Positions 2,973-43,878 of a stretch of 43,878 nucleotides of DNA are shown one piece after another (the first letter of the stretch is position 1; the number at the start of each line of letters is the position of its first letter). Below the pieces are notes generated by a model. It was not told where the DNA came from and searched no databases. It saw only the letters and a list, made by a program, of their open reading frames with translations. Both the position numbers and the translations under genes were made by a program. Source of the DNA: Oscillibacter sp. (GTDB lineage Bacteria; Bacillota; Clostridia; Oscillospirales; Oscillospiraceae); the NCBI GenBank assembly GCA_017446225.1, contig JAFSRH010000015.1:1-43878 (forward strand), written 5' to 3'.

Positions 2973-3078
2973 GGGAAGGTCCTCCGAAAAGTTTTGGATT
3001 CAAAAAAAACGGAAAGGCGGTTGGCGGGGGGGCCGATTTTCGCGAAAAAGGCCCCGCGGAAGAAAAGAAAGGATCTTT

Positions 3079-3117
3079 TAGTAGTAGTAGTAGTAGGGAT
3101 GTGGAAAATGTGGAAAA
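3079..3117 (-). promoter_or_regulatory. DnaA-trio basal unwinding element
   Basis: Read from dnaA toward dnaN on the minus strand, two head-to-tail TTTTCCACA boxes are followed by TCC and then six CTA triplets. The opposite strand therefore reads 3'-GAT-5' six times, the DnaA-trio motif on which DnaA assembles on single-stranded DNA to open the origin. The six trios are perfectly regular. Motif positions are seen directly; the assignment rests on the described B. subtilis element. Confidence 0.82.
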
Positions 3118-3307
3118 GTGCCTCAAACCCGCTTGGCGCCGGCAAAAGTTTTCCACATGGCCTTGTGGAAAACTTGTGGAAAGTGTGGAAAACTTCTTTA
3201 CTAAAAAGTTTTCCACAGGTTTTTATTCCACATTCCACATTTTTTTTGTGGAAAAGTAGAAAAACTTCTTTACTAAGCCTCAAATTTCGGGCCTCCGAAT
3301 TGCCCCT

Positions 3308-3378
3308 GAAAAGTTGCGAATTTTGAAAAAACGCGATTTTCGCCGTTTTTCCGGAAAACGCGGTTTTCGCAACTTTTC
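3308..3378. other. Long inverted repeat just after dnaA
   Basis: The 13-bp arms GAAAAGTTGCGAA (3308-3320) and TTCGCAACTTTTC (3366-3378) are perfect reverse complements. They enclose 45 bases that contain smaller palindromes such as GAAAACGCGGTTTTC (about 3354-3368). It lies 24 bases downstream of the dnaA stop. It could act as the dnaA transcript terminator, since runs of T follow inner stems on the minus strand, or as a structural element at the edge of oriC. Confidence 0.6.
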
Positions 3379-3401
3379 GCGCAGGTTCCGCGGCGGCGGT
3401 C

Positions 3402-4748
3402 TCAGAGGGCGTTCTGCCGCTCGGCGTCAAACTCGGACAGCAGATTGGTCTTGATCTCCCGGACCGTGTCGGCAAAGGCGGGGTCCTGCCGCATCCGGAT
3501 TTCGGTTTGACGGAGCGAGTAAATTACTGTGGAGTGGTCCCGGCCGTTGAAGCACTGCCCGATTTCGTCCTGTGACAGGTTCGTCATGTTGCGGATCAGG
3601 TACATGGCCACCTGTCGGGCGGTGGCGGCGCTCCGGTTGCGGGACTGCCCCGTGACCACATCGGGCGTGAGGTCGTAGCAGTGGCTGACGTACTGTATGA
3701 TGGCCTGCGGCGTGGGGACGTACTCGGCGGTGGTCTGCTTGAGGATGTCCTGCATGGCGCGGCGGACGGTGGCCTTGTCGGTGTGGTCGTTGAGCAAGTC
3801 CCGGTAGGCGAGAACCTTGTTGACGGTCCCCTCCAACTGCCGGACGTTGGACGTCACGTTTTCCGCGATATAGGACGAGACCGTGTCCGGAAAGGTGATT
3901 CCCAGACTGGCCGCCTTGGAGCGGATAATAGCGACCCGCGTTTCAAAGTCGGGCGGCTCCACGTCCACAATCAGCCCCCACTCGAAGCGCGTCCGGAGGC
4001 GTTCTTCCAGAAGCGTGATTTCGTGCGGCGGGCGGTCGCTGGTCAGCACGATTTGCCGCCCGGACTCGTAAAGGCTGTTGAAGGTGTGGAAAAACTCCTC
4101 CTGCGTCTGCTTCTTCCCGGCGATAAACTGCACATCGTCCACAAGCAGTACGTCCGCCTTGCGGTACTTGTCCCTCATTTCGGCGGTGGCGGTGCGTCCG
4201 GCCTGTATGGCGTCCACCAGTTCGTTGGCCAGCTCGTCGCCCTTGACGTAGATGGTGTGGTAGCGGGGGAAATTCTGGTGGATTTCGTTGGCAATGGCGT
4301 AAATGAGATGTGTTTTCCCCAGCCCCGATTCCCCGTAGATGAGAAGGGGGTTGTAATTACGGGTGGGGTACATGGCCACGGATTTTGACGCCGCCCACGC
4401 CAGCTTGTTGGACGGCCCGACAACGAACGTGTCAAAGGTAAAGCGTTCACTGGTATGCACGCCGAAGGTATCGGCGTCTTTGCCCTGAAATTTGCGGTAC
4501 TCCTCATCGTCCAGCACCTGAACCTCGAAAGAGCGGGAGAACAGATTTTTCATGGCGTCCTGAATGTTTTCCGTAAACAGGCTCTTGATGTAGCCCCGCT
4601 TGAAGCTGTTGCCGCAATGCAGAATCAGGGTGTTGCCCTGAATGTCCACGGGGTCCAGCTCATCGAACCACGTGTTGATCGTGGTATCGGAGAGCGCCCC
4701 GCGCATTTGTGTCAGGACGTTCTCCCATACGTCCGCGACTGAGTTCAA
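3402..4748 (-). CDS. dnaA: Chromosomal replication initiator DnaA
   Basis: DnaA is the AAA+ initiator that binds DnaA boxes and melts oriC. The product is 448 residues. It has an N-terminal DnaB-interacting domain (VWENVLTQMRGALSDTTINTWF) and the AAA+ core, with Walker A GESGLGKTHL and Walker B DVLLVDDVQFIAGK. The C-terminal helix-turn-helix carries the signature GRDHSTVIYSLRQTE. The open frame extends to an ATG at 4802, but the homologous N-terminus NSVADVWEN begins directly after a TTG at 4748. That TTG has a GAGAGGTG site six bases upstream, so TTG is chosen as the start. A promoter lies about 45 bases further up. Confidence 0.97.
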   Translation of the reverse strand: MNSVADVWENVLTQMRGALSDTTINTWFDELDPVDIQGNTLILHCGNSFKRGYIKSLFTENIQDAMKNLFSRSFEVQVLDDEEYRKFQGKDADTFGVHTSERFTFDTFVVGPSNKLAWAASKSVAMYPTRNYNPLLIYGESGLGKTHLIYAIANEIHQNFPRYHTIYVKGDELANELVDAIQAGRTATAEMRDKYRKADVLLVDDVQFIAGKKQTQEEFFHTFNSLYESGRQIVLTSDRPPHEITLLEERLRTRFEWGLIVDVEPPDFETRVAIIRSKAASLGITFPDTVSSYIAENVTSNVRQLEGTVNKVLAYRDLLNDHTDKATVRRAMQDILKQTTAEYVPTPQAIIQYVSHCYDLTPDVVTGQSRNRSAATARQVAMYLIRNMTNLSQDEIGQCFNGRDHSTVIYSLRQTEIRMRQDPAFADTVREIKTNLLSEFDAERQNAL

Positions 4749-4792
4749 ATAAAACACCTCTCTTCCCGGATGGGGCCTGAATTTACATGGAG

Positions 4793-4821
4793 AGTATACC
4801 ACGTTTCGCGGACAAGCACAA
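4793..4821 (-). promoter_or_regulatory. dnaA promoter
   Basis: On the minus strand, TTGTGC (4821-4816) is separated by 17 bases from TATACT (4798-4793). Transcription would begin near 4786, giving a leader of about 38 bases before the TTG start. No exact DnaA box overlaps it, so the common DnaA autorepression at this site is not evident. Confidence 0.65.
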
Positions 4822-4977
4822 TCCCGTTTTTTCCGGCCGGGGAGTATGGGCGCGCCGGATTTTGTCGAAAAGGCGCGGCGCGCCGGGAGGCGGGAACGTT
4901 TCCGGCCTGCCGGACCCTGCGGAGCGGGACGCGCTGGGAAAAAATGTAACCGGGCTGACTCTTTTTGCGCCGTTCCG

Positions 4978-27228: not shown

Positions 27229-28254
27229 TCAGAACTGTTCCAGAAAGCGGATATCGTTTTCAAAAATCAGCCGCAGGTCGCTGATTTTGTACCGCGCCAT
27301 AGCCATGCGTTCGAGTCCGAACCCGAACGCGTAACCGGAGTACGCTTCCGGGTCAATGCCGCACCCGGACAGCACTTTCGGATGGACCATGCCCGCGCCC
27401 AAAGCTTCGATCCAGCCCTCCCCCTTACAGGTCGGACAGCCTTTCCCGCCGCATTTGTGACACTGTACGTCCACTTCGCAACTCGGTTCCGTGAACGGGA
27501 AGTGGTGCGGACGGAAACGCGTCTTGGTACCGGAGCCGTAAATCTCCTGAATGACGGCGTTCAAGGTGCCTTTCAAGTCCGCCATGGTCACGCCCTTGTC
27601 AATGACAAGTCCCTCAATCTGGTGGAACATGGGCGAGTGGGTCGCGTCCACCTCGTCCTTCCGGTACACGCGCCCGGGGGAAATCATACGGATGGGCACG
27701 CCGTAGCGTTCCATGGCCCGGATTTGCATGGGGGAAGTCTGGGTACGAAGCAGGGTACGGGAATCGGCGTCCAGATAAAAGGTGTCGGACCACTCCCGCG
27801 CGGGATGGTCTTCCGGCGTGTTCAGTTTCGTGAAATTGTACTCCGACAGCTCCACTTCCGGCCCGTCCATGACTTCAAAGCCCATGTTGATAAAAATTTC
27901 CTTGAACTCGTCCAGCGCGATATACATGGGGTGCTGATGGCCCGTTTCCACCGGCTTTCCGGGGATGGTCACGTCCAGCGTTTCCAGCGCGAGACGCGTT
28001 TCCATGGCCTTTTTCGTCAGCACGGCGGTTTGTTCCTCAATGGCCGTTTCGAGCGCGGCGCGGACCTCATTGGCCATTTTGCCCATGGCCGGACGCTGGT
28101 CCGCCGTCAGCTTGCCCATTTGTTTGAGAATCGCGGTCAGTTCGCCCTTCTTGCCCAGATACCGGACCCGCAACGCCTCCAAATCCTGTGCGGCGGCGCT
28201 GTCCCGGATGGCCTCCGTAGCGCTCCGGAGAATCGCTTCCAGTTGTTCCTTCAT
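27229..28254 (-). CDS. pheS: Phenylalanyl-tRNA synthetase alpha subunit
   Basis: The 341-residue product has the normal family length. It has an N-terminal coiled-coil arm, then the class II catalytic core: HPARDMWDTFY-like EDHPAREWSDTFYLD, LLRTQTSPMQIR, RVYRKDEVDATHSPMFHQIEG and FGLGMERLAM-like FGFGLERMAM. The open frame starts at 28332, but the ATG at 28254 has AAGGAGTG upstream and matches family starts. pheT follows 14 bases on. Only 50 bases separate it from the upstream gene and no T-box leader is visible, unusual for pheST in Firmicutes. Confidence 0.96.
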   Translation of the reverse strand: MKEQLEAILRSATEAIRDSAAAQDLEALRVRYLGKKGELTAILKQMGKLTADQRPAMGKMANEVRAALETAIEEQTAVLTKKAMETRLALETLDVTIPGKPVETGHQHPMYIALDEFKEIFINMGFEVMDGPEVELSEYNFTKLNTPEDHPAREWSDTFYLDADSRTLLRTQTSPMQIRAMERYGVPIRMISPGRVYRKDEVDATHSPMFHQIEGLVIDKGVTMADLKGTLNAVIQEIYGSGTKTRFRPHHFPFTEPSCEVDVQCHKCGGKGCPTCKGEGWIEALGAGMVHPKVLSGCGIDPEAYSGYAFGFGLERMAMARYKISDLRLIFENDIRFLEQF

Positions 28255-28304
28255 ATTGTCACACTCCTTATGGTATGCCCTATCAAACAGAGCTTTCGGG
28301 GAAA

Positions 28305-28847
28305 TTACGCTCCCCATATGCGCGGAATCCATGTCGCCACAAATTCCGATTTGGGAATCGTATGTACCTCACGGTACAGCTTCCCCTCGATTTTGCGCAA
28401 TTCCCAATAGACGGGATATTCTTTTTTCGCATAACCGGCCATTTTTTGTTTGAAAGCGTCCAGTCCTTTTTCCTCTTCGTCCTGAAACACTACAAAAAAC
28501 TCGGCGTTCCGACATAAATCGTCCAGTGTGATGGTCTGGTCAATCGCCATTCTAACGGTCGAAATACTGTCACAGGCTTTCCGCCAAATCTGTTTTCTAT
28601 CCACGTTTTTGGATTTTTGATACTTAAACTCCATAAACCAGTGGGTTCCGTTTGCCAGTAAATAAGCGTCACAGCCCGCCAATGGCTGTGCGTCCCGGAG
28701 TTCTTCGCATATCCGTTTCGTCAAATCGTCCAGTTTGCACGCCGCGCGCGTATCATCGTCTATGAGCGGCAGTTTTTTGTTGTCGTCCAACGAGGCCTTG
28801 GAAAGAGGCTTGTTATAATCCTCTTTTCTAAATTTGCTGATTTCCAT
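28305..28847 (-). CDS. Putative PD-(D/E)XK nuclease, partner of ATPase
   Basis: I do not recognise a named family for this 180-residue protein. Residues D60, E73 and K75 in GCDAYLLANGTHWFMEFKYQ form the D-x(12)-E-x-K pattern of PD-(D/E)XK nucleases, placed on predicted beta strands. A downstream helix with RKQIWRKACDS resembles the conserved Lys-Asp-Ser helix of such folds. The start could be GTG at 28853, but the ATG at 28847 has GAGGAA nine bases ahead. It starts two bases before the stop of the ATPase gene upstream, so the two are one translational unit. The DNA is visibly richer in A/T than its neighbours, suggesting transfer. The nuclease activity is inferred. Confidence 0.65.
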   Translation of the reverse strand: MEISKFRKEDYNKPLSKASLDDNKKLPLIDDDTRAACKLDDLTKRICEELRDAQPLAGCDAYLLANGTHWFMEFKYQKSKNVDRKQIWRKACDSISTVRMAIDQTITLDDLCRNAEFFVVFQDEEEKGLDAFKQKMAGYAKKEYPVYWELRKIEGKLYREVHTIPKSEFVATWIPRIWGA

Positions 28848-28849
28848 AG

Positions 28850-30058
28850 TCACAGTTCCTCAAGGGGCATATAAAAATCATGGTAAATCAAGTTCGTGTT
28901 GCCGTCCACGTTCCGGACGTAAAACAGATTTTCCGCGCCGTCCGCGGGTTGTGTCTGGTAATAGTGACAATGGTCCGACAGTTCGTATTTGTCGGCGTAA
29001 ACCTCAATAGCGCGGAGAAAGTACGTGCTGTGGGTGTTCAGGAACAGCCGGACGCCCAATTCCTTATGCAGAAGCACGAGAGTTTCCGCTAATTTCAACT
29101 GCCATTCGGGATGTTGATTGTTTTCCGGCTCGTCAATGATCAGGACCGTGTTTTCACGCAATGCGCCGTTTTGAATGAGGCGTTGCAGGACGGCGAACGT
29201 CTTGTTGCCGGACGCAATATTCCGCAGGGAAACAGGCTCGTTGAAATGGTCGTCCGTAAACGTGAAGTTTCCGAAAGAGGAGGTAGTCAGTCTGCCGTGA
29301 ATGACGGAAGCAATCAGTTCCTGAACGTGTTCCCGGCTCTTGTATTCCTCAAATGTCGGTTCGGAGGCGGATTCTTTTAGAAGCGTATACAAATCGGAAT
29401 TGTACGCGGGTTCGCTGAATCTATCTAATACATGACGCGTGTCAAGGTAGATCGGCTTACGCACATGGATTTCCTGTACGCTACACTCTGTAATTGCGTT
29501 TCCCGTGATTTTCATCCATGCAAGGCGCGTGTTTTTCGTCCCGGTCAAAGACACTTCCCCCGGCTCCGGGGAATGAATGGTATTGATTTGGCTATCAAAT
29601 ACGGATTTCATCGTTTTGTCCGCCAAATATTGAACGTATTCCGTATTCGATCGATTTACAGCGGTCCGCAGTTTTTCAAGGAATTTCGGAAAAGACTCGC
29701 TGTCACCGTTCTTCAGATACTCCGGAAGTAAACGAACCCAATCCTCATATTGTTCCGGAATGGGACACGCGCCAGTAACAAAGTCGGAAGTTACTTGCGT
29801 TATGTGGTTAAGCAGTTTGCGATCTATGGAAAGCGTTTTTGCGGCCCGCATTAAAAAATCCATGACGATCAGCAAGACACTGTTCGTTCGTTCTTCAAGA
29901 ATTTTTTCCTCCAAATTCACATAGGACGCAATCACGCCGTAAAGGGCTTTACTGGTCGTACTTTTGCCGGTGCCGTTGTAACCGGCCAGAACCGTGATTC
30001 CGTCCAGTTCAATTTCCGCGTCCCGAATGACGCCAATGTTTTTCATGGTCAGTTTCAT
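28850..30058 (-). CDS. OLD-like/AAA_21 ATPase without TOPRIM domain
   Basis: This 402-residue ABC/SMC-like ATPase has Walker A GYNGTGKS at about residues 26-33. It has a degenerate signature (NIASGNKTFAVLQRLI), Walker B VLIIDEPENNQHPEWQ at about 305-320 and an H-loop NTHSTYFLRAIE near 330. These are the features of overcoming-lysogenization-defect (OLD)-like and Septu-type ATPases. The C-terminal TOPRIM nuclease of OLD proteins is missing; the protein ends about 70 residues after the H-loop. The upstream frame is spurious: ATG 30058 has AGGAGG eight bases ahead. Base composition is A/T-richer than the flanks. With the following gene it forms a candidate ATPase-nuclease defence pair. Confidence 0.82.
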   Translation of the reverse strand: MKLTMKNIGVIRDAEIELDGITVLAGYNGTGKSTTSKALYGVIASYVNLEEKILEERTNSVLLIVMDFLMRAAKTLSIDRKLLNHITQVTSDFVTGACPIPEQYEDWVRLLPEYLKNGDSESFPKFLEKLRTAVNRSNTEYVQYLADKTMKSVFDSQINTIHSPEPGEVSLTGTKNTRLAWMKITGNAITECSVQEIHVRKPIYLDTRHVLDRFSEPAYNSDLYTLLKESASEPTFEEYKSREHVQELIASVIHGRLTTSSFGNFTFTDDHFNEPVSLRNIASGNKTFAVLQRLIQNGALRENTVLIIDEPENNQHPEWQLKLAETLVLLHKELGVRLFLNTHSTYFLRAIEVYADKYELSDHCHYYQTQPADGAENLFYVRNVDGNTNLIYHDFYMPLEEL

Positions 30059-30099
30059 GTCAAAACCTCCTAAGACGTTACGCGGGACGCGGAAGCGCG

Positions 30100-30933
30100 T
30101 CAGAACAGATTGTAGACGGGTTCCCACATGGTGACGGTCCAGCGCGGCATACGCGCCGTGCCGTTGTACAGGTCCGCGGTGTCGGACCACGTCAGCAGGG
30201 AGACCGGAAAGAGTTCGTCAACGAGCGGGTCGGCGGCGGGTTCGCGCGCCCCGAACGGGTAGGCGAAACAGGTCGGCGGCACGCCTAATTCTTCCGTCAG
30301 GCGGTCGTAACTCTTCCGGATGTCGTCCAGCACGCGGACTTGAAACGCTTCGTCCGTTTCGCCGTCCAGACGCTGAATCCCGTTCGGCTCCCCGGGCTTA
30401 TAGGAGCCGTTGACGTCCAGATTGTGGAGTTTGTACGTGTGGGAGCCGATTTCGACCAGTCCGGACGCGATCATCTCCCGGTACATATCCCACGAACAGA
30501 ACTCCGTTGCCAGCAGGTCCGGCATACAGACAATCGGAGAAATTAACGCCTTGAAGCCGTATTCCTGTAAAATCGGGTACAGAAGCGTGTAATTGCTCGT
30601 GTATCCATCGTCAAACGTAATGAGGATGGGCTTATCGGGCAGGGAAGCGGGGTCAAGGAGTTCGCGCGGGAGTACGGGCGTGTAGCCCTGTTTCCGGATG
30701 TAGTCGAAGTCCTGACGGAGTTTGGAGGGCGTCACGGTCATGTCGTTGCATTCGGAGCCGTCCGGGAGCATATGGTGGTACATCAGAATCGGCATAGGGT
30801 CGCGGTAGGGGTCGAGCTTGAACTTCCATATCACCTTGTCGCCGTAAAAGACGCCGAAGAGCAGGCACAGCGCGAACAACGCGAACAGACCGAAGCCAAA
30901 CAGAGGACGCGAGGAGGCCGGTTTCCGTATCAT
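30100..30933 (-). CDS. Membrane-anchored polysaccharide deacetylase
   Basis: This 277-residue NodB-type (CE4) deacetylase has an N-terminal membrane anchor (PLFGFGLFALFALCLLFGVFYG) and an extracellular catalytic domain. Motifs seen are PILMYHHML, the metal/base motif ILITFDDGYTSNY and GSHTYKLH. The late motif TCFAYPFGAREP is also present. It probably removes acetyl groups from peptidoglycan or another wall polysaccharide. An ATG at 30954 is possible. The ATG at 30933 was chosen because AAAGAAG lies ahead of it and the promoter leaves only about 11 bases for the earlier one. The ATPase gene follows 41 bases after its stop. Confidence 0.88.
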   Translation of the reverse strand: MIRKPASSRPLFGFGLFALFALCLLFGVFYGDKVIWKFKLDPYRDPMPILMYHHMLPDGSECNDMTVTPSKLRQDFDYIRKQGYTPVLPRELLDPASLPDKPILITFDDGYTSNYTLLYPILQEYGFKALISPIVCMPDLLATEFCSWDMYREMIASGLVEIGSHTYKLHNLDVNGSYKPGEPNGIQRLDGETDEAFQVRVLDDIRKSYDRLTEELGVPPTCFAYPFGAREPAADPLVDELFPVSLLTWSDTADLYNGTARMPRWTVTMWEPVYNLF

Positions 30934-30971
30934 AAAGCATACTTCTTTCTTCATCAAGGTTAATCCGACAC

Positions 30972-31000
30972 ATGATAACACAGGAAATCCGAATTGTAAA
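30972..31000 (-). promoter_or_regulatory. Promoter of the deacetylase gene (and perhaps the ATPase-nuclease pair)
   Basis: On the minus strand, TTTACA (31000-30995) and TATCAT (30977-30972) are separated by 17 bases. Transcription would start near 30965. No clear terminator lies between the deacetylase and the ATPase gene, so this promoter could also serve the latter. Confidence 0.7.
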
Positions 31001-31013
31001 TACGCGATTTGCC

Positions 31014-31052
31014 AAAAAAACGCCTCCGCGTGCCGAAAAGACAGCGGAGACG
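31014..31052 (-). terminator. Rho-independent terminator of the CstA-type gene
   Basis: On the minus strand, a 9-bp stem (31052-31044 with 31029-31021, one G-T pair) and a 14-base loop are followed by seven T (31020-31014). It lies about 25 bases after the cstA stop. Confidence 0.85.
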
Positions 31053-31076
31053 GGAGCAAGATTTACTTGACGGAAG

Positions 31077-34729: not shown

Positions 34730-34817
34730 GGCTTTCGGAAGGCATTGCATAAAAAAGTACGGGCACGGAAACGCGGAAAAGGGAAACCGGCTCTCCCTGC
34801 CGGACGCGTTTCTTGTC

Positions 34818-34846
34818 AAATCGCGCAAAAATCGCGGTTTTTTTTT
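34818..34846 (+). terminator. Terminator insulating the phage promoters
   Basis: The arms AAATCGCG (34818-34825) and CGCGGTTT (34833-34840) pair over eight bases, with one G-T, and the T-run continues to 34846. It faces rightward just ahead of the phage promoters, so it would block readthrough into the phage operon. Confidence 0.6.
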
Positions 34847-34860
34847 GTAAAATCCGCCGG

Positions 34861-34920
34861 TTGACAGAAATAGAACATTTGTGCTATTCTTTGACAAGAA
34901 TCAAACGTTTGTTCTATTTT
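34861..34920 (+). promoter_or_regulatory. Two tandem 30-bp promoter/operator units with LexA-like boxes
   Basis: Unit 1 (34861-34890) is TTGACA, 18 bases, TATTCT; unit 2 (34891-34920) is TTGACA, 18 bases, TATTTT. The units agree at 23 of 30 positions. Each spacer contains a box one base off the Gram-positive LexA core GAAC-N4-GTTC: GAACATTTGTGC at 34873-34884 and AAACGTTTGTTC at 34903-34914, exactly 30 bases apart. A repressor bound there would block the promoter. LexA or a phage repressor are the candidates. Confidence 0.68.
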
Positions 34921-34941
34921 CCGGCAAAGGAGGTGTGCCAT

Positions 34942-35250
34942 ATGTGCGCCCTTGGGGAGCGTCCGGACCTGCGTCCGGAACTGATGGAGCGTTTGAGCGA
35001 CCCGTCCACCCGTCAACGGATCGCCGATGCCCTCATCACGGAGGCCACCGGGGGGCCGCCGGACCCGAAAACCGGCGCACCCAAAGGCGGCGCGACCGTC
35101 ATTCGCGCCTTTGAGCTTATCCGGGAAATCGCGCTCGAACAGGCTCCGGAACCCGCCGCTGACTGGGATTTGTCCCGCTACACAGACGCCGAACTGACCG
35201 CAATGCTGACGCGTCTGGAAGTCGGCCCCGCGGACTGTGGCGCGCCTTGA
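34942..35250 (+). CDS. Small phage protein in the terminase-small-subunit position
   Basis: This 102-residue protein is the first gene after the phage promoters, immediately before the terminase large subunit and overlapping it by four bases. Sequence features are weak: an N-terminal helical part (ELMERLSDPSTRQRIADALI), a Pro/Gly-rich middle (GGPPDPKTGAPKGGATV) and a C-terminal helix (YTDAELTAMLTRLE). Its position suggests a small terminase subunit, but no DNA-binding motif is clear. The ATG at 34942 follows AAAGGAGG; an earlier in-frame ATG at 34813 lies upstream of the promoters and is rejected. Confidence 0.7.
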   Translation: MCALGERPDLRPELMERLSDPSTRQRIADALITEATGGPPDPKTGAPKGGATVIRAFELIREIALEQAPEPAADWDLSRYTDAELTAMLTRLEVGPADCGAP

Positions 35251-36725
35251 CCCGCGCCGGACAAATCCGCGCGGAACTGCTCCGGCGCGAATTAGCCCGC
35301 CGCAATTACGCCGCGTGGTTACGTCTGACGGGCGGCCCGCTGTGGATTCCCACCCGCTTTTCCGGCTTTCTGGCCCGGGAGGCCCAAGCGTTTCTGGAAG
35401 CCGATACCGGAAACGCCTATGACATCCTGATTCTGGAAACGCCGCCCCAGCACGGGAAATCCATGGCGGTCACGGAAGCCCTCCCGGCGTGGGTCCTGCT
35501 CCGCGCCCCGGAGACCCGCGTCATCCTCGCGTCCTACAATGAGGAAAGCGCCGAACGCTTCGCGCGGCGTAACCGGGAAAAACTCAGCCGCTGGGGGCCG
35601 CTTCTCGCCGGCGTTACGCCGGGAGGCGTGAACCGCGCCACGGAGTACGAGCTGTCCGGACACCGCGGACGCCTCATCAGCCGGGGCATTATGTCGGGCA
35701 TTACCGGCAACGCCGCCGACCTGCTGATTGTGGACGACCCCGTCAAGAACCGGGAAGAGGCGGACAGTCCCGCCTATCGTAACAAACTTTGGGGCGAATG
35801 GCTCAACAGTTTAAAGTCCCGTCTGGCGGCGAAAGCGAAAGTCATTGTCATCATGACGCCGTGGCACGAGGACGACTTGGCCGCGCGCATTCTCCGCACG
35901 GAAACGAATGTCCGTCTGCTGCGTCTGCCCGTGGAGGCGGAGACGTCCGACCCCATGGGCCGCGCGCCCGGGGAGCCGCTCTGTCCGGAACTCGGCAAGG
36001 GGGCCGGCTGGCTCGCGCAGTTCCGCCGCGCCTACCTCAGCGACCCTTCGGGCGGACAACGCGCGTGGCTGGCCCTGTACCAGTGCCGCCCCCGCGCCGA
36101 ACGCGGGAACCTGATCCGCCGCGACTGGTGGAAGTTCTACGATGGCCCCCCGGACGCGTTCGGGACCTGTTGCGTCAGCGTGGACGCGGCCTTTAAAGGC
36201 GGGGAACAAAACGACTTTGTCGCCGTCACCGTCTGGGGACGCCGGGACGAAAACTACTACCTGCTCGAATGCGTCAACCGCCATCTGGACTTTGTCGGCA
36301 CGCTCGCCGTCATTCGGGACGTCCGCGCGCGCTTTCCCGCCGCTTACGCCGTTCTCATAGAGGACAAAGCCAACGGAAGCGCCATTTTAGACGTCCTGCA
36401 ACGGGAAATGTTCTGTATTCCCGTGGACCCGCGCGGCGACAAGCGTTCCCGCGTCTACGGGGCCTCGCCCGCCATTGAGAGCGGACACGTCTTTTTACCG
36501 CGTTCCGCGCCTTGGCTGGAAGCGTATCTGGACCAGTGGAGCGCGTTCCCGTCCGGACAGCATGACGACATGGTGGACAGTTCCACACAGGCGTTACACT
36601 GGCTCTTCGGCAAAAGCGGGACCGTTCCCGCGCCGCCTGAAGAGGATGACGACTCCCCGCCGCGTGAGGAGCGATACCGCGCCGCCCTGACGGATAACGA
36701 CCGTTACAATGTTTACGGATGGTGA
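35247..36725 (+). CDS. Phage terminase large subunit
   Basis: The terminase motor packages DNA into the phage head. The 492-residue product has an ATPase domain, with Walker A PPQHGKS near residue 70 and Walker B LLIVDDPVKN near 158. The coupling region follows with VIVIMTPWHEDDLAARIL. The RNaseH-like nuclease domain shows SVDAAFKGG (first Asp), IEDKANGSAI and HDDMVDS (last Asp). All catalytic positions appear intact. The start is TTG at 35247, overlapping the previous stop as TTGA. Confidence 0.93.
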   Translation: MTRAGQIRAELLRRELARRNYAAWLRLTGGPLWIPTRFSGFLAREAQAFLEADTGNAYDILILETPPQHGKSMAVTEALPAWVLLRAPETRVILASYNEESAERFARRNREKLSRWGPLLAGVTPGGVNRATEYELSGHRGRLISRGIMSGITGNAADLLIVDDPVKNREEADSPAYRNKLWGEWLNSLKSRLAAKAKVIVIMTPWHEDDLAARILRTETNVRLLRLPVEAETSDPMGRAPGEPLCPELGKGAGWLAQFRRAYLSDPSGGQRAWLALYQCRPRAERGNLIRRDWWKFYDGPPDAFGTCCVSVDAAFKGGEQNDFVAVTVWGRRDENYYLLECVNRHLDFVGTLAVIRDVRARFPAAYAVLIEDKANGSAILDVLQREMFCIPVDPRGDKRSRVYGASPAIESGHVFLPRSAPWLEAYLDQWSAFPSGQHDDMVDSSTQALHWLFGKSGTVPAPPEEDDDSPPREERYRAALTDNDRYNVYGW

Positions 36726-36747
36726 AAGACAACGGAAAGGAAGGTCT

Positions 36748-36954
36748 ATGTATTTCGTAATTGGATTCTGCGGGGCGCTGGCCTGTCTGGCCCTCTTCGG
36801 ACTGGGGGCCGCGACCGGATGGAGACTGCACCGGTACGCGCGCCGCCCGGACGCCGTCCCCGCGCCGGAAGCCCGCGATGAGCTGGACGCCTTCCGCAGA
36901 CTGCAAAACTACACCGTGGAGGACGCCTACGGGCGGAACCGACAGGAGGAATGA
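36748..36954 (+). CDS. Small single-span membrane protein
   Basis: This 68-residue product has one N-terminal membrane helix (YFVIGFCGALACLALFGLGA) and a charged cytoplasmic tail ending in DAYGRNRQEE. It lies between terminase and portal with three bases before the portal start. A GGAAGG site precedes the ATG. I do not know a function; small membrane proteins at this place in Firmicutes phages are usually unassigned. Confidence 0.7.
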   Translation: MYFVIGFCGALACLALFGLGAATGWRLHRYARRPDAVPAPEARDELDAFRRLQNYTVEDAYGRNRQEE

Positions 36955-36957
36955 CCT

Positions 36958-38517
36958 ATGACGCAACGCGCCCGTACGCGGGCATGGACCCTCTACGAGA
37001 GCGGCCGGGAGTACAACTGCCGCCAGAACCCCAACCAGTACAGCCTCGTGAAAACCAACACCGAATTCTTCATTGGAAACCAGTGGCTGAACCTGCCCGA
37101 CACCCCGGCCATGCGCGCGCTCCCAAAGCCTACGTTTAACATCTTGAAACGCGTGGCAAGTCTGTTTATCGCGTCTCTGACCGGGAACGCGTTCCGGCTC
37201 CGGGTCGGGCCGCTCCTTGACGCTTCCGATACGGACGCCGCCGCCTTCGCGGACGCGGAGTTATCCAGTCTGCTGGAAAAGTTCCACTTTGAATACCGTA
37301 TCCGCGACGCCCTCTTTGACGGGGCGCAGACCGGCGATTACTGCGCCCATTTCTGGTTCGACCCGGACGCGCGTCCCTACGGCGGTACCGGCGCCTTCCG
37401 CGACTACCGGGGCGAAATCCGGATGGAACTGGTAGACGGTATCAACGTCATGTTCGGCAACCCCGCCGACCGTCAGGTTGAACGACAGCCTTGGATATTG
37501 CTGGTCGGCCGTGACCGCGTGGACAATCTCCGCCGGGAGGCCCAGCGTTTCCACGGGCCGGGCGGACCCGTAGAACCGATTTTCGCGGACACGGAAGCCG
37601 CCGACATCCCCGGCGAAGAGGAAAGCGCGCTCTATGTCTTGCTCTACACCAAGGCCGACCGTATGCGCAACGGTACCCGCGAAACGACCGTACGCGTCAC
37701 CAAGGCCACCCGGGACGCCGTCATTTACGAGAATATCGACACCGGACTGTCCGTCTACCCCATCGCGTGGGGCAACTGGGAGCGTCAGCGCGGACAGTAC
37801 CACGGACGCGCGCTCGTTACGGGCCTGATTCCCAACCAGATCTTTATCAACACTCTGTTCGCCACCGCCATGCGCCATATCCAGCTAATGGCCTTCCCGC
37901 GCACCGTCTACAACGCGGACCTCATTTCCACGTGGACCAACGAAGTCGGACAGGCTATCGGCATTCGCGGCCTGCAACCCGGGCAGAATGTCACATCCGT
38001 GGCCGGTACGCTTCCCGCGTCCGAAATGAGCGCGCAAATTTTCACGCTCATTGACAAGGCCATGTCCTACACAAAAGAATGTCTCGGCGTGTCGGACGTA
38101 CAGCTCGGAAACGCCCGTCCCGAAAATACTTCCGCGCTGGCCCTCTTACAGACCAATGCCGAAATCCCGCTGGAAAACATCCGCGCCGGCCTGCACGAGT
38201 GGATCGAGGACATCGGCCGTATTCTGCTGGACATGATGGGCACCTGTTACGGCACGCGCCCGGTCGTGAGCGGCGGCTCCGTCACAACGGACTTCGACTT
38301 CCGCGTCTTTAAACATCTCTGGCTGAACCTCCGCGCGGACGTGGGAAAAACGACTTCCTACAATGAGGCGGCCCTGCTGGATATGCTGAACGAACTTCGC
38401 CGTGACGGTTTCCTGACCGCCATACAGTATCTCGAACGCGTCCCGGAGCATTTGTTTCCCCGTAAGGCCGAACTCTTGGACGAACTCCGCGCGACATCTA
38501 TGTCCGTAAAGGCGTGA
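36958..38517 (+). CDS. Phage portal protein
   Basis: The portal is the dodecameric ring through which DNA enters the capsid. The 519-residue product sits directly after terminase, the expected place. It has a long alpha/beta body. Typical parts are FNILKRVASLFIASLTGNAF, the clip-like WILLVGRDRV region, and the late helical stem with PENTSALALLQTNAEIPLENI, common in portals of P22-like and related phages. AGGAGG lies seven bases ahead of the ATG. The family was judged by order, length and these stretches rather than a diagnostic motif. Confidence 0.82.
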   Translation: MTQRARTRAWTLYESGREYNCRQNPNQYSLVKTNTEFFIGNQWLNLPDTPAMRALPKPTFNILKRVASLFIASLTGNAFRLRVGPLLDASDTDAAAFADAELSSLLEKFHFEYRIRDALFDGAQTGDYCAHFWFDPDARPYGGTGAFRDYRGEIRMELVDGINVMFGNPADRQVERQPWILLVGRDRVDNLRREAQRFHGPGGPVEPIFADTEAADIPGEEESALYVLLYTKADRMRNGTRETTVRVTKATRDAVIYENIDTGLSVYPIAWGNWERQRGQYHGRALVTGLIPNQIFINTLFATAMRHIQLMAFPRTVYNADLISTWTNEVGQAIGIRGLQPGQNVTSVAGTLPASEMSAQIFTLIDKAMSYTKECLGVSDVQLGNARPENTSALALLQTNAEIPLENIRAGLHEWIEDIGRILLDMMGTCYGTRPVVSGGSVTTDFDFRVFKHLWLNLRADVGKTTSYNEAALLDMLNELRRDGFLTAIQYLERVPEHLFPRKAELLDELRATSMSVKA

Positions 38518-38560
38518 TGAATACAGCGAAAACGCTTTACAGTCAGAAAGGAGCTTCCCA

Positions 38561-38968
38561 ATGAACGAACAGCCTGTTTCCCCCGCGCCCCCTGTCACGG
38601 CGGCGCCCGCGCCCGTTACGGAACCCGCGCAAGCCGCGCCCGTGCCCGTATCCGCCACGCAAGCCGTACCCGCGCCCATGCCGCAAACCGTACCCGGCCC
38701 CGTTACGCCCGCTCCGCAAACCGTACCCGCGCCCGTACCGCAAACCGTACCCGCCCCGCAAGCCGTACCCGTTACGGAACCCGCCGCGCCCGCGGGCGTG
38801 GAACCGGATTACCGCGCCATGTATGAAAGCCTCCGCCGGGAAAACGAACTCCTTCGCCACAACGCCGAAATCACACAGCATTCCCCCGTACAGGGCGTCT
38901 CCGGGGGCGGGAGCGTCACAGCCCCCGCGGACGACTTCGTACGCGGCTTCGATTCCGACACGTGGTGA
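38561..38968 (+). CDS. Proline-rich, repeat-containing scaffold-like protein
   Basis: This 135-residue protein lies between portal and capsid, where scaffold proteins usually are. Residues 1-80 are almost only Pro, Ala, Val, Thr and Gln, built of QxVPxPV-type repeats. The DNA shows the 16-mer CCGCAAACCGTACCCG three times. The C-terminal part has a short coiled coil (YRAMYESLRRENELLRHNAEI) and an acidic end (DDFVRGFDSDTW). Scaffold function is inferred from position and coiled coil; the Pro-rich half is unusual for scaffolds. Confidence 0.68.
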   Translation: MNEQPVSPAPPVTAAPAPVTEPAQAAPVPVSATQAVPAPMPQTVPGPVTPAPQTVPAPVPQTVPAPQAVPVTEPAAPAGVEPDYRAMYESLRRENELLRHNAEITQHSPVQGVSGGGSVTAPADDFVRGFDSDTW

Positions 38969-38990
38969 ACGCAGAAAGGAAGAATGAGCT

Positions 38991-39839
38991 ATGCCGACTC
39001 CCAATGTAAACTTGGCCTCCCGCTACGCCGGGAAAGTCGATGAACGCTTTGCGATTGCCTCTCAGGCCACGCTCGCGCTCAATCAGGACTACCGCTTTGC
39101 CGGGGTCCGTACCGTGAACGTCTACTCCATTCCCACGGTCCCGCTCAACAATTACACCCGCTCCGGGCAGTCCCGTTACGGCACCCCCGCCGACCTCGAA
39201 AACAGCCTTCAGGAGTTGACCGTCACGCGGGACCGCGCCTTTTCCTTCATCATTGACCGCGCCGACCGTAACCAGACCCAGATGGCCATGGACGCCGGAC
39301 GCGCCCTCTCCCGTGAAATCCGGGAAGTCGTGGTCCCCGAGTACGACACGTACGTGTTCCGTACCATGGCCCTGACCGCCTGTACGAAAGGCAACACCGC
39401 CACGACCGCCGCCACAAAGAACAACGCCTATGAACTGTTCCTCAACGCGCAGGAATCGTTAGGCAACCACAGCGTACCGGACACCGGACGCGTTTGCTTC
39501 TGTTCCTACAAGTTCGCGAATCTGTTGAAACAGGACCCCGCGTTTATGCGTTACGGCAACGCCTCCCAACTGATGCTCGCCAAGGGCGTGATGGGGGAAG
39601 TGGACGGAACCCGGATTGTAAAAGTCCCGGCTTCGCGTCTGCCCACGGGCGCGGAGTTCATCCTGACGCACCCCGTGGCCGCCTGCGCGCCGAAACAGTT
39701 GGAGGATTACAAAATTCACGACAACCCGCCCGGCATTTCCGGTTGGCTCATTGAGGGACGCGTCCTCTATGACTGCTTCATCCTCAAGGAGAAGGCGAAC
39801 GCGGTGTGGTACCACGGCACGGCGGTCACGAACAGTTAA
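38991..39839 (+). CDS. Major capsid protein
   Basis: This 282-residue protein occupies the capsid position after the scaffold-like gene. It has an N-terminal segment, then SFIIDRADRNQTQMAMDAGRALSREI-type helix and strand elements. The late strands include RIVKVPASRLPTGAEFILTH and GWLIEGRVLYDCFILKEKAN. These resemble HK97-fold capsids of Firmicutes phages that lack a protease domain. A strong hairpin (39845-39864) follows the stop, common after capsid genes. No protease gene is present, so the head probably matures without a separate protease. Confidence 0.82.
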   Translation: MPTPNVNLASRYAGKVDERFAIASQATLALNQDYRFAGVRTVNVYSIPTVPLNNYTRSGQSRYGTPADLENSLQELTVTRDRAFSFIIDRADRNQTQMAMDAGRALSREIREVVVPEYDTYVFRTMALTACTKGNTATTAATKNNAYELFLNAQESLGNHSVPDTGRVCFCSYKFANLLKQDPAFMRYGNASQLMLAKGVMGEVDGTRIVKVPASRLPTGAEFILTHPVAACAPKQLEDYKIHDNPPGISGWLIEGRVLYDCFILKEKANAVWYHGTAVTNS

Positions 39840-39844
39840 TTGCG

Positions 39845-39864
39845 CGGGGGCCTGCCGGCCCCCG
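39845..39864 (+). terminator. GC hairpin after the capsid gene
   Basis: An 8-bp perfect stem (CGGGGGCC with GGCCCCCG) and a TGCC loop lie five bases after the capsid stop. No T-run follows, so it is more likely a partial terminator or mRNA-stabilising hairpin that keeps capsid expression above the downstream tail genes. Confidence 0.6.
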
Positions 39865-39889
39865 TAACGGGAACATAAGGAGGACTTGC

Positions 39890-40483
39890 ATGCAATACCG
39901 TAACATCAAGCGGGCCGTCCTCGAACTGATGGACCAGTACAGCATAGCGGGAGAACCGATTTCCCCCGCGTATAATCACCAGTCCGACACGATCCGGAAG
40001 ATTCCGGGCCTCGTCAATCAGGCGCTTTTGGATATCCGCACCGGACCCTGTCCGGAACGGGGCGTGTGTCGTCTGGAGCACGGCGAAACGCTCTCCAACG
40101 GCTGGAGACAGCATACGCTCCCCGGCGACTTCTGGCGGCTCTGTTCCGGCGGGGTGCGGAAACTCTCCGATGACGGCCCGGAGCTGACCAACGAATACCA
40201 GCTTGTCGGGGGCCGCGCGCTCCTGACCCCGGAGGGCGCGTACATGGTGGAATACTACCACTACCCGGAACAGCTCCCCGATGATCCGTCCGATGAGTAC
40301 GAATGCGGCGAGAGTCCGGAGGCCATCCGGATTGCGTGTCTGTACGCGGCGGCCTGTCTCATGCGTACGGAGGACGAGTTCGCCTATACGACCCTGTTCC
40401 ATGAGTACGAATCCCGGCTCAGCCAACTGACCCCCGCACTGGTCGCGACAGTCCGGCCGGTCCGGGATGTCTACGGCTTCTGA
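39890..40483 (+). CDS. Head-tail connector/adaptor protein
   Basis: The 197-residue product directly follows the capsid gene with AAGGAGG ahead of its ATG. The mostly helical sequence has AVLELMDQYS, IPGLVNQALLDIRTG and EAIRIACLYAAACLMRTED. It also has a beta section around LPGDFWRLCSGGVRKL. This mix is typical of adaptor (gp6/gp4-like) proteins that bind the portal. The frame extends upstream to 39806 only as a shadow. Identity is inferred from order and composition. Confidence 0.65.
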   Translation: MQYRNIKRAVLELMDQYSIAGEPISPAYNHQSDTIRKIPGLVNQALLDIRTGPCPERGVCRLEHGETLSNGWRQHTLPGDFWRLCSGGVRKLSDDGPELTNEYQLVGGRALLTPEGAYMVEYYHYPEQLPDDPSDEYECGESPEAIRIACLYAAACLMRTEDEFAYTTLFHEYESRLSQLTPALVATVRPVRDVYGF

Positions 40484-40497
40484 CGGGAGGTGACGCT

Positions 40498-42600
40498 ATG
40501 CGCTCCGCCAATCGGGAACGGACGTACCGTTTCCCCGCGCTCAACGGGGGCTTGAATCTACGTGACGCGGAAATCAACCTCAAAGACAACGAGTCCCCGG
40601 AAATTGTCAATCTCTGGTGGGAGGACGGCGTGTTACAGGCTCGTCCCGGACAGGAACGGGCGACTTCCGGATGGGGCGGCGGCTCCTATTCCGGGTACGC
40701 CTTCCCCGCGTCCGATGCGGTCTACGCCGCCACAACGTTTCAGGAAGGCGTGGTGGTCCACGTTGGGGCGTCCCTGTACACGTGGCACGGCAATTTCCGG
40801 GAACTGCGCCGCGTCACCTCCCCCGGAAACGCGAGCATTGCCACCGGCGTGCCCCGCAACGCCGGGACCTTCTTCCGGTTCGGAAACGACCTGTTTTACA
40901 AAAACGCGGGCGGCTTCTATCGCCTGACTTACAACGCTTCCCATGGTCCGCTGACTGCCCCGCTTACGATTTCCCGCGTGGCCGACAACGCCTTTATTCC
41001 GACCGTCCTTGTCAACGCCGACCCCGCCACCGGACAGGGGGACCCGTATCAGTCGGAAAACCGCCTGTCCCCTCAAAAACGCGTCCGCTATGTTGCCTTG
41101 TCTGTGCCGGAAAACGTGGTCCGTACCGGAAACGGACTCACCCGGGTTTTCAGTATGGGCGTCACGGCGTCCGAAAACCTTCGCGGCGTCTCCGCCGTCT
41201 ACGTTGATACCGCCCTGCTGAAACCCGCCCTGTATTCGGTGGACGTACGCTCCGGAAGCGTACTTTTCAACACCGCGCCGGCCGAAAATTCCGTACTCAC
41301 CTTCACGCTGGATATCGGACAGTTGGAATACCACCTCCCCGCGGACAGCGTGGAGGCGGTGACACAGGTCCGCGTGGACGGCCTGACCATGGTCCAGAGC
41401 CGGGACTATGCCGCGGACCCCGTGACCGGAACCGTAACCTTTACACAGGCCCCGCCCGCCGCCGCTTCCGTGGAAATCACCTACCGCCAACAGAACGCCG
41501 CCGCGCTCGCGGAAATCATGGCCTGTCCGTACGCGCTGGCGTGCGGGACCGGGGAACGCTTATGTATTGTCACGGGCGGCGCGGAACAGTGTCCGGAGGC
41601 CGTGTACTGGTCCGGCGTCACGGAGTCCGGGCCTGACCCGTCCTACTGGCCGGAGGAATCGCGGAATCTGATCGGGGGCGATGTCACCGGCTTCGGCGGG
41701 CAGTACGACCAGATCATTGTGTTCCAGTCGCGGCGCATTGGGAAGCTCAGCCTCTCCAACAAAACGCTCAACGGCCGCGACAGCATTTCTTTGACCTATT
41801 CCGGCGTCCATGACAAAATCGGCTGTGATCTGCCCCGTTCGGTACAGCTCATTGGAAACAACCTGACGTTCGCCAACACATCCGGCGGCGTCTATCAGGT
41901 GCTGTCCTCTTCCGCCGCGCGGGAAAATAACGTCCGCTGTCTGTCCGGCAAAATCAACGGCTCCGATACCCGCCCCGGACTGCTCCACGATATGCGCGTT
42001 GCCGGTACCGGACCCGTCTGCTCCCTTGACGATGGGCAACGCTACTGGCTCGCCGTCAATGACCATGTCTGGCTTTGGGATTATTCCTTGTCCGACAGCG
42101 CCGACCCGGTCTGGTTCTTTTTTACGGGGTTAAGTCCCCGCGCGCTGTCCATGCGTGACCGGGCGCCGTGTCTGGTCAACGCCGCCGCCCAGACGGTCCG
42201 CCTTGGCCCGGTACTGAGCGACTTTGGGGAAGCGGTCCGGAAAGTGTACCAGTTTCCCGTGCGGAACTTCGGCGGGTACGACCGCCTCAAAGACGTGCGC
42301 GCCGTCCTGTTCTCTCTCCGCGCGGACACGCCCTCGGATGTCGCCGTACTCTATGAGACCGACTACGAAACCCGGGCCGACCTGCTCAGTCTCCATGTCG
42401 CGGGCTACGACCGGCTCACGGACCGGAATCTGGAAGTACGGGACCTGAGCGTACCGCGTCACGCGGCCGTGTTCCGGCGGCGGCCGAAATGCCGACACGT
42501 CCGCCACTTTTCCTTACGGTTGGAGAATAACGCCGCCGGACAGAACCTCGCGCCGTATTCCGTGGAAATTCAAATCCGTTATCAGGGGAGGGACCGCTAA
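40498..42600 (+). CDS. Large beta-rich tail/hub protein
   Basis: The 700-residue product starts TYRFPALNGGLNLRDAEINL and continues with NLWWEDGVLQARPGQE, a start shared by tail-hub proteins of short-tailed phages. The rest is beta-rich, with repeats of FTLDIGQLEYHLP- and DYAADPVTGTVTF-like strands. No enzyme motif is seen. It replaces the usual tail-tube and tape-measure genes in this order. GGAGGTG precedes the ATG. The next gene starts at the stop (TAATG). Confidence 0.6.
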   Translation: MRSANRERTYRFPALNGGLNLRDAEINLKDNESPEIVNLWWEDGVLQARPGQERATSGWGGGSYSGYAFPASDAVYAATTFQEGVVVHVGASLYTWHGNFRELRRVTSPGNASIATGVPRNAGTFFRFGNDLFYKNAGGFYRLTYNASHGPLTAPLTISRVADNAFIPTVLVNADPATGQGDPYQSENRLSPQKRVRYVALSVPENVVRTGNGLTRVFSMGVTASENLRGVSAVYVDTALLKPALYSVDVRSGSVLFNTAPAENSVLTFTLDIGQLEYHLPADSVEAVTQVRVDGLTMVQSRDYAADPVTGTVTFTQAPPAAASVEITYRQQNAAALAEIMACPYALACGTGERLCIVTGGAEQCPEAVYWSGVTESGPDPSYWPEESRNLIGGDVTGFGGQYDQIIVFQSRRIGKLSLSNKTLNGRDSISLTYSGVHDKIGCDLPRSVQLIGNNLTFANTSGGVYQVLSSSAARENNVRCLSGKINGSDTRPGLLHDMRVAGTGPVCSLDDGQRYWLAVNDHVWLWDYSLSDSADPVWFFFTGLSPRALSMRDRAPCLVNAAAQTVRLGPVLSDFGEAVRKVYQFPVRNFGGYDRLKDVRAVLFSLRADTPSDVAVLYETDYETRADLLSLHVAGYDRLTDRNLEVRDLSVPRHAAVFRRRPKCRHVRHFSLRLENNAAGQNLAPYSVEIQIRYQGRDR

Positions 42601-43878
42601 TGCCCGATACCAACGAAACGCCCGAACTGATTCCGCGTCTTTTCTACTCCAAAAACTGGGAGGACCCCGCCGACTACGCCACCCATCAGCACAACGAAAT
42701 ACAGAACCGCCGCGACTTGCAGAGCCTTTTTACCGAAATCGCCACTTATATTAACAACGTCATGCTCCCCCGCGCCGAACAGCTCCTGACGGAAAACGGC
42801 GGCGCAAGCGGCGAAGGCGGCGGAAGCGTTACGGGCGGCGTGTCCGGCGACTATCTGCCGCTGGACGGCGGGACCATGCGCGGCGTACTCCGCCTCTTCC
42901 GTGACCCGGTACTGGACGCCGAAGCCGTCACAAAGCGTTACGCGGATGCGCTGGCTACCGGAATCCGCGCGGATATGAACGGCAATTTCAGCGCAATCCG
43001 GCAGGACGTGGACGCAATCGAACTTCTTGTACAGGACCCCGACGGGATTGCCTCCCTTTTAACCCGGGCGGACGCCAGTGAGGGACGCGTCACAGACACG
43101 GAAGGCGACATTGGAGCCTTGACCGTCCGCGCGGACGGGATTGCAACGTCTGTTTCTACCATGGACGGCAGAGTGTCCACGCTGGAACAGACGGCGAACG
43201 GTATGGAAACCCGTGTCGCCAATGCGGAAGGCGACCTTTCCAGCATCCGTCAGAAAGTGGACGGAATCGCGCTCAACGTGTCCACCGTGACGGAAAACGG
43301 GGAAGTGTTCGCGCGGCTGACGCTTACCATTGGGGAACATGACTTGTATGGCTACATCAAACTGGACGGCAACGTGGACGTGTCCGGACAGCTCTCCGCA
43401 AACGCGCTGTACGCCGGTTACGGAGAAGTGGCCAATCTGGCCGTTGACCGGCTGGTTACCACGCGCCGTATCGTCAAGTATCTGCAAGGCGACCGGTCGG
43501 ACGACAATTTCATCCGGGCGTACGAACAGAACATGGAGTGGGTCACGGGGACCTGTACCGGCGGAACCGTACAGGCCAAAACGCCGGACGGCTCCCCGCT
43601 CTACTGGCCCGTGGACGTCTCCGGCCTGTCGCGCGGCGCGGACGGATACCCCGTCAACGCGCAACAGGAGCGTATCTTTACCACGACCACGCCGACCGGT
43701 TACCCCGTACAGGTCTACACGTACACGGAAGCCGTTAAGCGTTCCATTTCCTTCGAGGCCGTCAACGGCATTTACTCGCCCATTGACCGCTTCGGCGCGG
43801 GAAACGCGCAGGGCAACAACAAGGCGTGGATACTCAAGACCGCGGACGGGTTCGACATTCGTTACCTGACGCCCGACA
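42600..43878 (+). CDS. Tail fibre/spike protein, 3' end beyond the window
   Basis: The ATG at 42600 overlaps the preceding stop as TAATG, with GGGAGGG six bases ahead. The frame stays open to the window edge (426 codons), so the product is incomplete. Residues near 85-115 (LPLDGGTMRGVLRLF, then AVTKRYAD) match the tail-fibre hinge motif LDGGTM(x)G...AVTK(x)Y. Long heptad-like stretches with repeated VSTxDGRVSTLEQTANGMETR follow (about 120-235). A beta region comes after these. It is probably the receptor-binding fibre. Confidence 0.78.
   Translation, partial: MPDTNETPELIPRLFYSKNWEDPADYATHQHNEIQNRRDLQSLFTEIATYINNVMLPRAEQLLTENGGASGEGGGSVTGGVSGDYLPLDGGTMRGVLRLFRDPVLDAEAVTKRYADALATGIRADMNGNFSAIRQDVDAIELLVQDPDGIASLLTRADASEGRVTDTEGDIGALTVRADGIATSVSTMDGRVSTLEQTANGMETRVANAEGDLSSIRQKVDGIALNVSTVTENGEVFARLTLTIGEHDLYGYIKLDGNVDVSGQLSANALYAGYGEVANLAVDRLVTTRRIVKYLQGDRSDDNFIRAYEQNMEWVTGTCTGGTVQAKTPDGSPLYWPVDVSGLSRGADGYPVNAQQERIFTTTTPTGYPVQVYTYTEAVKRSISFEAVNGIYSPIDRFGAGNAQGNNKAWILKTADGFDIRYLTPD

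Follow-up and report, generated by a model that had tools for sequence, protein, structure and literature searches.

The nearest tested system to the gene pair described here is WonAB, a two-gene operon of the Vibrio cholerae WASA-1 prophage that encodes an OLD-ABC ATPase (WonA) and a PD-(D/E)xK protein (WonB) (PMC12137116). Phage defence by WonAB needs both genes and depends on residues K34, R182, E300 and H333 of WonA and on K71 of WonB (PMC12137116). The response is an abortive infection with translation arrest, in which phage DNA replication continues with a 2.7-fold defect; overproduction of WonB is toxic only with active WonA, and leaves genomic DNA undegraded (PMC12137116). WonAB was put by its authors in an operon class named 'OLD-ABC ATPase + Novel REase', which is said to take in all WonAB and, by their count, is found in 0.96% of bacterial genomes, and its similarity to PD-T4-4 was noted (PMC12137116); the assignment to this class is repeated in PMC12409358. 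In the parts of the literature covered, the V. cholerae prophage WonAB is the class member with a described mode of action. In this work, a pair of adjacent genes, A and B, was analysed in a 43,878-nucleotide stretch of DNA from Oscillibacter sp. (contig JAFSRH010000015.1 of assembly GCA_017446225.1, positions 1 to 43,878; hereafter, the window). By its architecture, motif, residue spacing and relatives, the pair looks like a member of the 'OLD-ABC ATPase + Novel REase' or WonAB kind. A preliminary description, made from the sequence without database searches, had taken the pair for an unrecognised system, a view that is not supported, since architecture, motifs and residue spacing correspond to what is already described at the class level with WonAB (PMC12137116). 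The pair is a true module of a kind already described, one member of which, WonAB, has been tested by others. The available parts of the literature on WonAB, PD-T4-4 and OLD-ABC ATPases contain no description of this particular pair.

Both open reading frames (ORFs) are present on the minus strand where they had initially been placed, and are separated by 2 bases, the ATG of gene B, at 28847, lying 2 bases past the stop codon of gene A. An alternative GTG start of gene B at 28853 would lead to an overlap with gene A. The features of the pair are as follows.

28850..30058, minus strand: gene A, OLD/ABC-type ATPase of 402 amino acids (aa) (ORF, Pfam, PADLOC and a 75-row family alignment)
28305..28847, minus strand: gene B, predicted PD-(D/E)XK nuclease of 180 aa (motif and family alignment)
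29960..29983, minus strand: Walker A of gene A, GYNGTGKS (K32); G26, N28, K32 and T34 invariant in the 75 aligned ATPases
29123..29143, minus strand: Walker B of gene A, LIIDEPE (D309, E310); D309, E310, P311 and E312 invariant (n = 75)
29027..29035, minus strand: H-loop of gene A, THS (H343); H343 invariant (n = 75)
28623..28676, minus strand: motif of gene B, residues 58-75 (G58-C-D60 ... M-E73-F-K75), from a 67-row alignment

The preliminary description had presented gene A as a TOPRIM-less ATPase with Walker A, Walker B (with PENNQHPEWQ) and H-loop. All three motifs were read in gene A, with the invariant residues listed above, and no TOPRIM was found among the 14 Pfam families matched by the protein, which include AAA_15 (4.3e-15) and AAA_21 (6.2e-14). 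The 75-row alignment excludes loci L058, L068, L085, L086, L088 and L090 (L and G numbers designate the loci and genomes surveyed). E310 and H343 are 33 residues apart, a distance of 32 or 33 in the five other members read, and the C-terminus of gene A extends 59 residues beyond H343. After Walker B, gene A reads NNQHPEWQ and the majority of its relatives IHLHPEWQ; alignment position 314 is occupied by H in 71 of the 75 ATPases and by N in 4, N being the residue in the window. Among the matches listed for gene A (the best 25 of 125 in PADLOC and the best 25 of 37 in NCBIfam), the AriAB and retron Eco8 effector models fall on the ATPase part of the protein (residues 274-350 and 209-352, respectively).

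Gene B was found to carry the D60/E73/K75 pattern that had been noticed at the outset, together with its start 2 bases after the ATPase stop. The pattern is more than a coincidence: D60 and E73, as well as D40 and K90, are invariant across the 67 aligned nucleases, position 75 is K in 66 and R in one (G079), and position 74 is F in 65. Position 58 is S in 61 nucleases, and the window departs from these with G58. Invariance holds for the rows kept in this alignment, in which 61 of the 80 loci of the scan described below were included and 19 excluded: L022 (on the contig of L006, already represented), L058 (a near-duplicate of L048), L027, L059 and L068 (short), L034, L071, L074 and L078 (long), L039 and L055 (partner ORF not intact), L087, and L072, L084, L085, L086, L088, L090 and L096 (without a like partner). 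Searches with gene B itself gave nothing useful: its best Pfam match (0.11) fails the cut-off of that family, TOPRIM, DUF4435 and HNH are all absent from its Pfam matches, PADLOC and NCBIfam returned zero matches, and the best values were 0.14 in PHROGs and 0.18 in the PDB. The nuclease alignment, used as a profile against the PDB, also gave nothing (best E 1.3, capsid proteins), and the Shedu domain PF14082 matched zero genomes and none of the controls, which renders that search uninformative. Single nuclease members showed weak PADLOC matches to Cas4 and to CARF-PDDEXK (one member each, best 0.00088), which were not relied on. The PD-(D/E)XK fold of gene B is predicted on the basis of its motif order and of the published WonB model.

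Two features of the class, a TOPRIM-less OLD-type ABC ATPase encoded first and an adjacent small protein with D ... E-x-K, are present in the window pair, and the two-gene operon of WonAB has the same order of OLD-ABC ATPase and small PD-(D/E)xK protein (PMC12137116). The likeness extends to single residues. The 33-residue spacing between E300 and H333 of WonA equals that between E310 and H343 of gene A, the Walker A lysine is K34 in WonA and K32 here, and K71 of WonB is near K75 of gene B in position (PMC12137116). The class exemplar is Anaerovibrio lipolyticus, and a pair from Mitsuokella (L061), which belongs to the family of the exemplar, Selenomonadaceae, is among the relatives collected. 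A difference is that the homologues of WonAB come mainly from Gram-negative bacteria, according to their description (PMC12137116).

The coupling of ATPase and small nuclease is largely general among relatives, so that the survey of co-occurrence proposed in the preliminary description came out mostly in its favour. A scan of GTDB with the ATPase alignment yielded 236 confirmed loci, the best 80 of which were studied. An independent nuclease profile, built from 5 sequences from outside these loci, none of which exceeds 42% identity with the proteins under test, detected the partner, whole or partial, directly downstream in 69 of the 80 ATPase loci, with no further match among their 3,600 ORFs. 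With a 67-row profile, built mostly from these same loci, the partner was found in 73, and one extra match appeared elsewhere, in L050. At L027, L039, L055 and L068, what was counted as a partner is a fragment of a broken or cut gene. In the reverse direction, the 67-row profile matched 8 of 398 genomes of the phylum, the window being included by construction, and the ATPase lies directly upstream in all 8, in two pieces in the case of G453 (L113). Relatives of gene A at E <=1e-15 are present in 7 of 394 genomes of the order; besides the window, five of them have a small ORF with S-x-D ... E-F-(K/R) directly downstream, and the sixth is cut by the contig end. Across 62 pairs, the distances between ATPases and those between nucleases are correlated (r 0.745), a value reached in 0 of 2000 permutations. 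A match in G130 was dropped as chance, as it lies inside a long ORF whose translation reads like the R subunit of a type I restriction system. Broken partner or ATPase genes were seen at L039, L055, L068, L163, L164 and G453 (L113), as a result of assembly error or decay.

The genomic setting of the pair agrees with the initial impression of an A/T-rich, acquired cassette lodged between pheS and a deacetylase gene. The pair is an accessory insert in a chromosomal junction that is vacant in two close relatives, and is delimited by the following features.

28275..30098, no strand: the accessory insert in full, of about 1824 bp and with a G+C of 0.48 (site empty in two congeners; ends uncertain to within a few bases)
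30100-31059: polysaccharide deacetylase gene, one flank of the pair (PF01522)
start at 28254: pheS, the other flank (start set by comparison with congeners)

In G793 and G803, whose PheS is 92% identical, the deacetylase gene is joined directly to pheS and the pair is absent; the window aligns through 28274 and resumes at 30099, onto neighbouring bases in both genomes. The G+C content of the insert (0.48; computed twice, as 0.478 and 0.479) contrasts with that of the window (0.597). A third congener, G811, harbours a diverged copy of the pair at the same junction, with 67% identity for gene A and 69% for gene B. Gene A (E <=1e-20) was detected in 2 of the 31 genomes of the genus, those of the window and G811, some of the other genomes being incomplete. 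Between the window and G811, synonymous divergence reaches 1.63 and 1.28 for the two genes of the pair, 0.70 for pheS and 0.65 for the deacetylase gene. This value, about twice as high in the pair as in the flanking genes, suggests that the two copies arrived separately or that recombination replaced one of them; the contrast may also stem from codon bias in the flanking genes and from sites in the pair that are close to saturation. The ratio of nonsynonymous to synonymous divergence in the same comparison is 0.16 for gene A and 0.18 for gene B, and both look like real genes under purifying selection. The empty site, the second occupied allele and the wide distribution of the family are the main points of interest of this locus, which offers a natural comparison with and without the pair among congeners.

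Named members of the family belong to Bacillota, Actinomycetota, Spirochaetota, Planctomycetota, Bacteroidota, Pseudomonadota and Campylobacterota, and further include a Desulfovibrio, Mucispirillum and archaea (Methanosarcinaceae, Thermoplasmata); many of these relatives are metagenome bins, which can contain foreign contigs. In a quick ATPase tree, phylum labels need 19 changes for a minimum of 10 (mean of shuffles 25.6, 0 of 200 as low), indicating a mixing of phyla that is, however, weaker than under shuffling. The window ATPase groups there with one from Lachnospiraceae and with an archaeal one on a long branch. Pairs were also found on plasmids (35-kb Acinetobacter, 5.9-kb Klebsiella) and on an unannotated gut 'phage' scaffold. 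Among 13 virus-collection contigs found via the ATPase, 4 carry whole pairs (L158, L159, L160, L162), one of them beside terminase-subunit-like genes and another after an amidase-like lysin, names that come from reading translations. A scan of viral contigs for close relatives of gene B gave none. The presence of relatives in many phyla, in archaea, on plasmids and on virus-collection contigs suggests that the natural reservoir of this two-gene design is wide, and the diverse alignment obtained here can be used for picking more members.

Defence genes are part of the company of the family. In a set of 118 neighbouring genes of 120-650 aa, lying no more than 2.5 kb away and drawn from up to 71 of the 80 loci, the matches listed at 1e-15 (from the best 25 of 53 families) include PARIS AriAB, AbiLi (3), the reverse transcriptase of DRT, ThsB of Thoeris, pAgo and methyltransferases. 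The defence context suggested in the preliminary description is supported in this respect, as well as by plasmids and virus-collection contigs; the location in defence islands, which it had proposed to survey, was looked at, and enrichment was not shown.

A WonAB-like two-gene defence cassette is, with good probability, the best explanation for these data. By analogy with WonAB, phage defence would very likely be the function of the pair, and gene B probably acts as a nuclease licensed by the ATPase. Under such a mechanism, gene A would form an ABC-type dimer sensing something made or altered by the phage, and its ATP cycle would stabilise and license gene B; the released nuclease would then cut host or phage nucleic acid, and growth would halt ahead of progeny production, as in abortive infection. 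An RNA target (tRNA or rRNA), tentatively put forward here on the same analogy and the least certain step of this mechanism, would be more likely than DNA, because WonB arrests translation without genome degradation.

Several observations weigh against the WonAB-like interpretation. WonAB was likened to the window pair by its published description, not by sequence alignment. When the profile of the nuclease family was compared with that of 30 Cas4 nucleases, the score was equalled or exceeded in 35 of 60 shuffles of the columns and was therefore not significant; the best local match aligns the D and E-x-K motifs, yet no better than shuffled columns. The partner is absent in 11 of the 80 loci by the 5-sequence profile and in 7 by the 67-row profile; of these 7, L072 looks like a lone ATPase, the ATPase of L086 is cut at the contig start and no partner is seen downstream, and in L084, L085, L088, L090 and L096 the ATPase is followed by other small genes that fall outside the nuclease profile. 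As for the viral contigs, a partner match is missing in L161, genes are broken in L163 and L164, the end of the contig truncates L165, and L166-L170, with more distant ATPases, lack a match to the nuclease profile. Lastly, a set of 82 genes located more than 5 kb away likewise includes matches to defence models (best 25 of 35 families listed); island enrichment was looked at and not shown, so that company with defence genes is claimed here, and not enrichment.

The best surviving alternative is a restriction-like system, in which the complex would cut invading DNA directly, without abortive infection. It is among DNA nucleases that PD-(D/E)XK folds occur most often. DNA is the substrate cut by OLD-family relatives such as GajA (PMC10568477). 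However, in WonAB, the nearest tested system, phage DNA keeps replicating and the genome remains undegraded while translation stops (PMC12137116), and a scan of ten genes of the window revealed no methyltransferase, all of which makes a restriction-like activity unlikely. A toxin-antitoxin module, with gene B as a toxin restrained by gene A and maintained by post-segregational killing, would fit the tight pairing with a small predicted nuclease, the patchy occurrence (2 of 31 genus genomes) and the copies on plasmids and virus-collection contigs, but it is improbable: the would-be antitoxin is a complete ABC ATPase whose catalytic residues are invariant, 7 of the 80 ATPase loci are devoid of this partner, and WonB is non-toxic without WonA, which according to its authors rules out simple sequestration (PMC12137116).

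Membership in PD-T4-4 proper was considered in view of the similar design, an OLD-like ATPase followed by a small nuclease, with a related ATPase C-terminal half. PD-T4-4 is tabulated with AAA_15 and a PD-(D/E)XK nuclease (PMC10952713), and gene A matches PADLOC PD-T4-4_A (1.6e-24), as all 75 aligned ATPases do at 1e-5. Nevertheless, the PD-T4-4 models give 8e-232 and 2.1e-94 with a true PD-T4-4 pair, that of the E. coli plasmid pCUVM53-4, no similarity of the nuclease of that pair to the gene B family could be detected (profile comparison probability 0.5%), and gene B has no PD-T4-4_B match, which leaves very little room for this assignment. Unlike PD-T4-4_B, the partner on the Acinetobacter plasmid is related to the gene B family (profile comparison 97.5%). 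PD-T4-4 has been found on an element resembling integrative and conjugative elements (ICE-like; PMC9519451); its pair in pCUVM53-4 (L103:497-2555) accounts for nearly half of this 4.5-kb plasmid, and eleven small Klebsiella plasmids display the same partial ATPase match as pCUVM53-4.

The best PADLOC match of gene A is HEC-02A (8.5e-28), ahead of PD-T4-4_A, but the HEC-02A model is shorter (337 positions). HEC-02B matches 11 of 62 nucleases weakly (best 8.4e-07), and none of the HEC-02 models matches gene B; HEC-02A gives 3.7e-124 with one of the neighbouring genes surveyed, which places the window pair outside the HEC-02 core. The PADLOC search called for in the preliminary description thus gave HEC-02A and PD-T4-4_A for gene A and no match for gene B. 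Weaker PADLOC scores were obtained by gene A with PtuA (6e-13) and AriA (1e-15). Septu, PARIS and Gabija share with the window pair a split or fused ATPase plus nuclease effector and an AAA_15/AAA_21 ATPase; the effector is HNH in Septu and TOPRIM in Gabija, AriB having a weaker score (PMC10952713), whereas gene B has D ... E-x-K. Septu was set aside owing to the lack of a PADLOC match or of HNH in the Pfam matches of gene B, and PARIS and Gabija owing to the lack of TOPRIM or DUF4435 in the Pfam matches of either protein. Finally, a housekeeping role in DNA repair, like that of RecF or SbcCD, to which the RecF/SMC-like P-loop domain and a relative (G005) adjoining genes with SbcC- and SbcD-like translations could point, is highly improbable given the presence in only 2 of 31 genus and 8 of 398 phylum genomes, the empty site in close relatives, the wide but patchy occurrence across bacteria and archaea, and the carriage on plasmids and virus-collection contigs.

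Some relatives depart from the common form of the pair. Off-profile small partners with a D ... (D/E)-x-K stretch of their own are encoded at L084:2140-2679, L085:9256-9735, L090:2262-2786 and L096:9245-9826, where partner exchange is possible. The partners at L034:2899-4134 and L078:9400-10698, of 411 and 432 aa, consist of the nuclease plus a long C-terminal addition. Tandem pairs occupy L050:3038-6800, with a pair of the family at 3038-4835 and a second one made up of a shorter ATPase (343 aa) and its own small E-x-K partner. It is conceivable, though somewhat doubtful, that the family constitutes a sensor platform with exchangeable effectors, in which one OLD-ABC ATPase scaffold would work with different small nucleases, the D ... 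E-F-K protein in the majority of copies, an idea for which the off-profile partners, the extended nucleases and the tandem pair might be cited. If so, the pheS-deacetylase junction would be a slot for swapping whole alleles between congeners, and such swapping would explain the approximately twofold synonymous divergence of the pair relative to its flanks.

Besides the pair, the window contains a prophage-like region (34813-43878) that begins about 5 kb from it and includes the following genes.

35247-36725: terminase large subunit
36958-38517: P22-like portal

More ORFs are found in this region as far as the contig end, one of them with a weak DUF2460 match.

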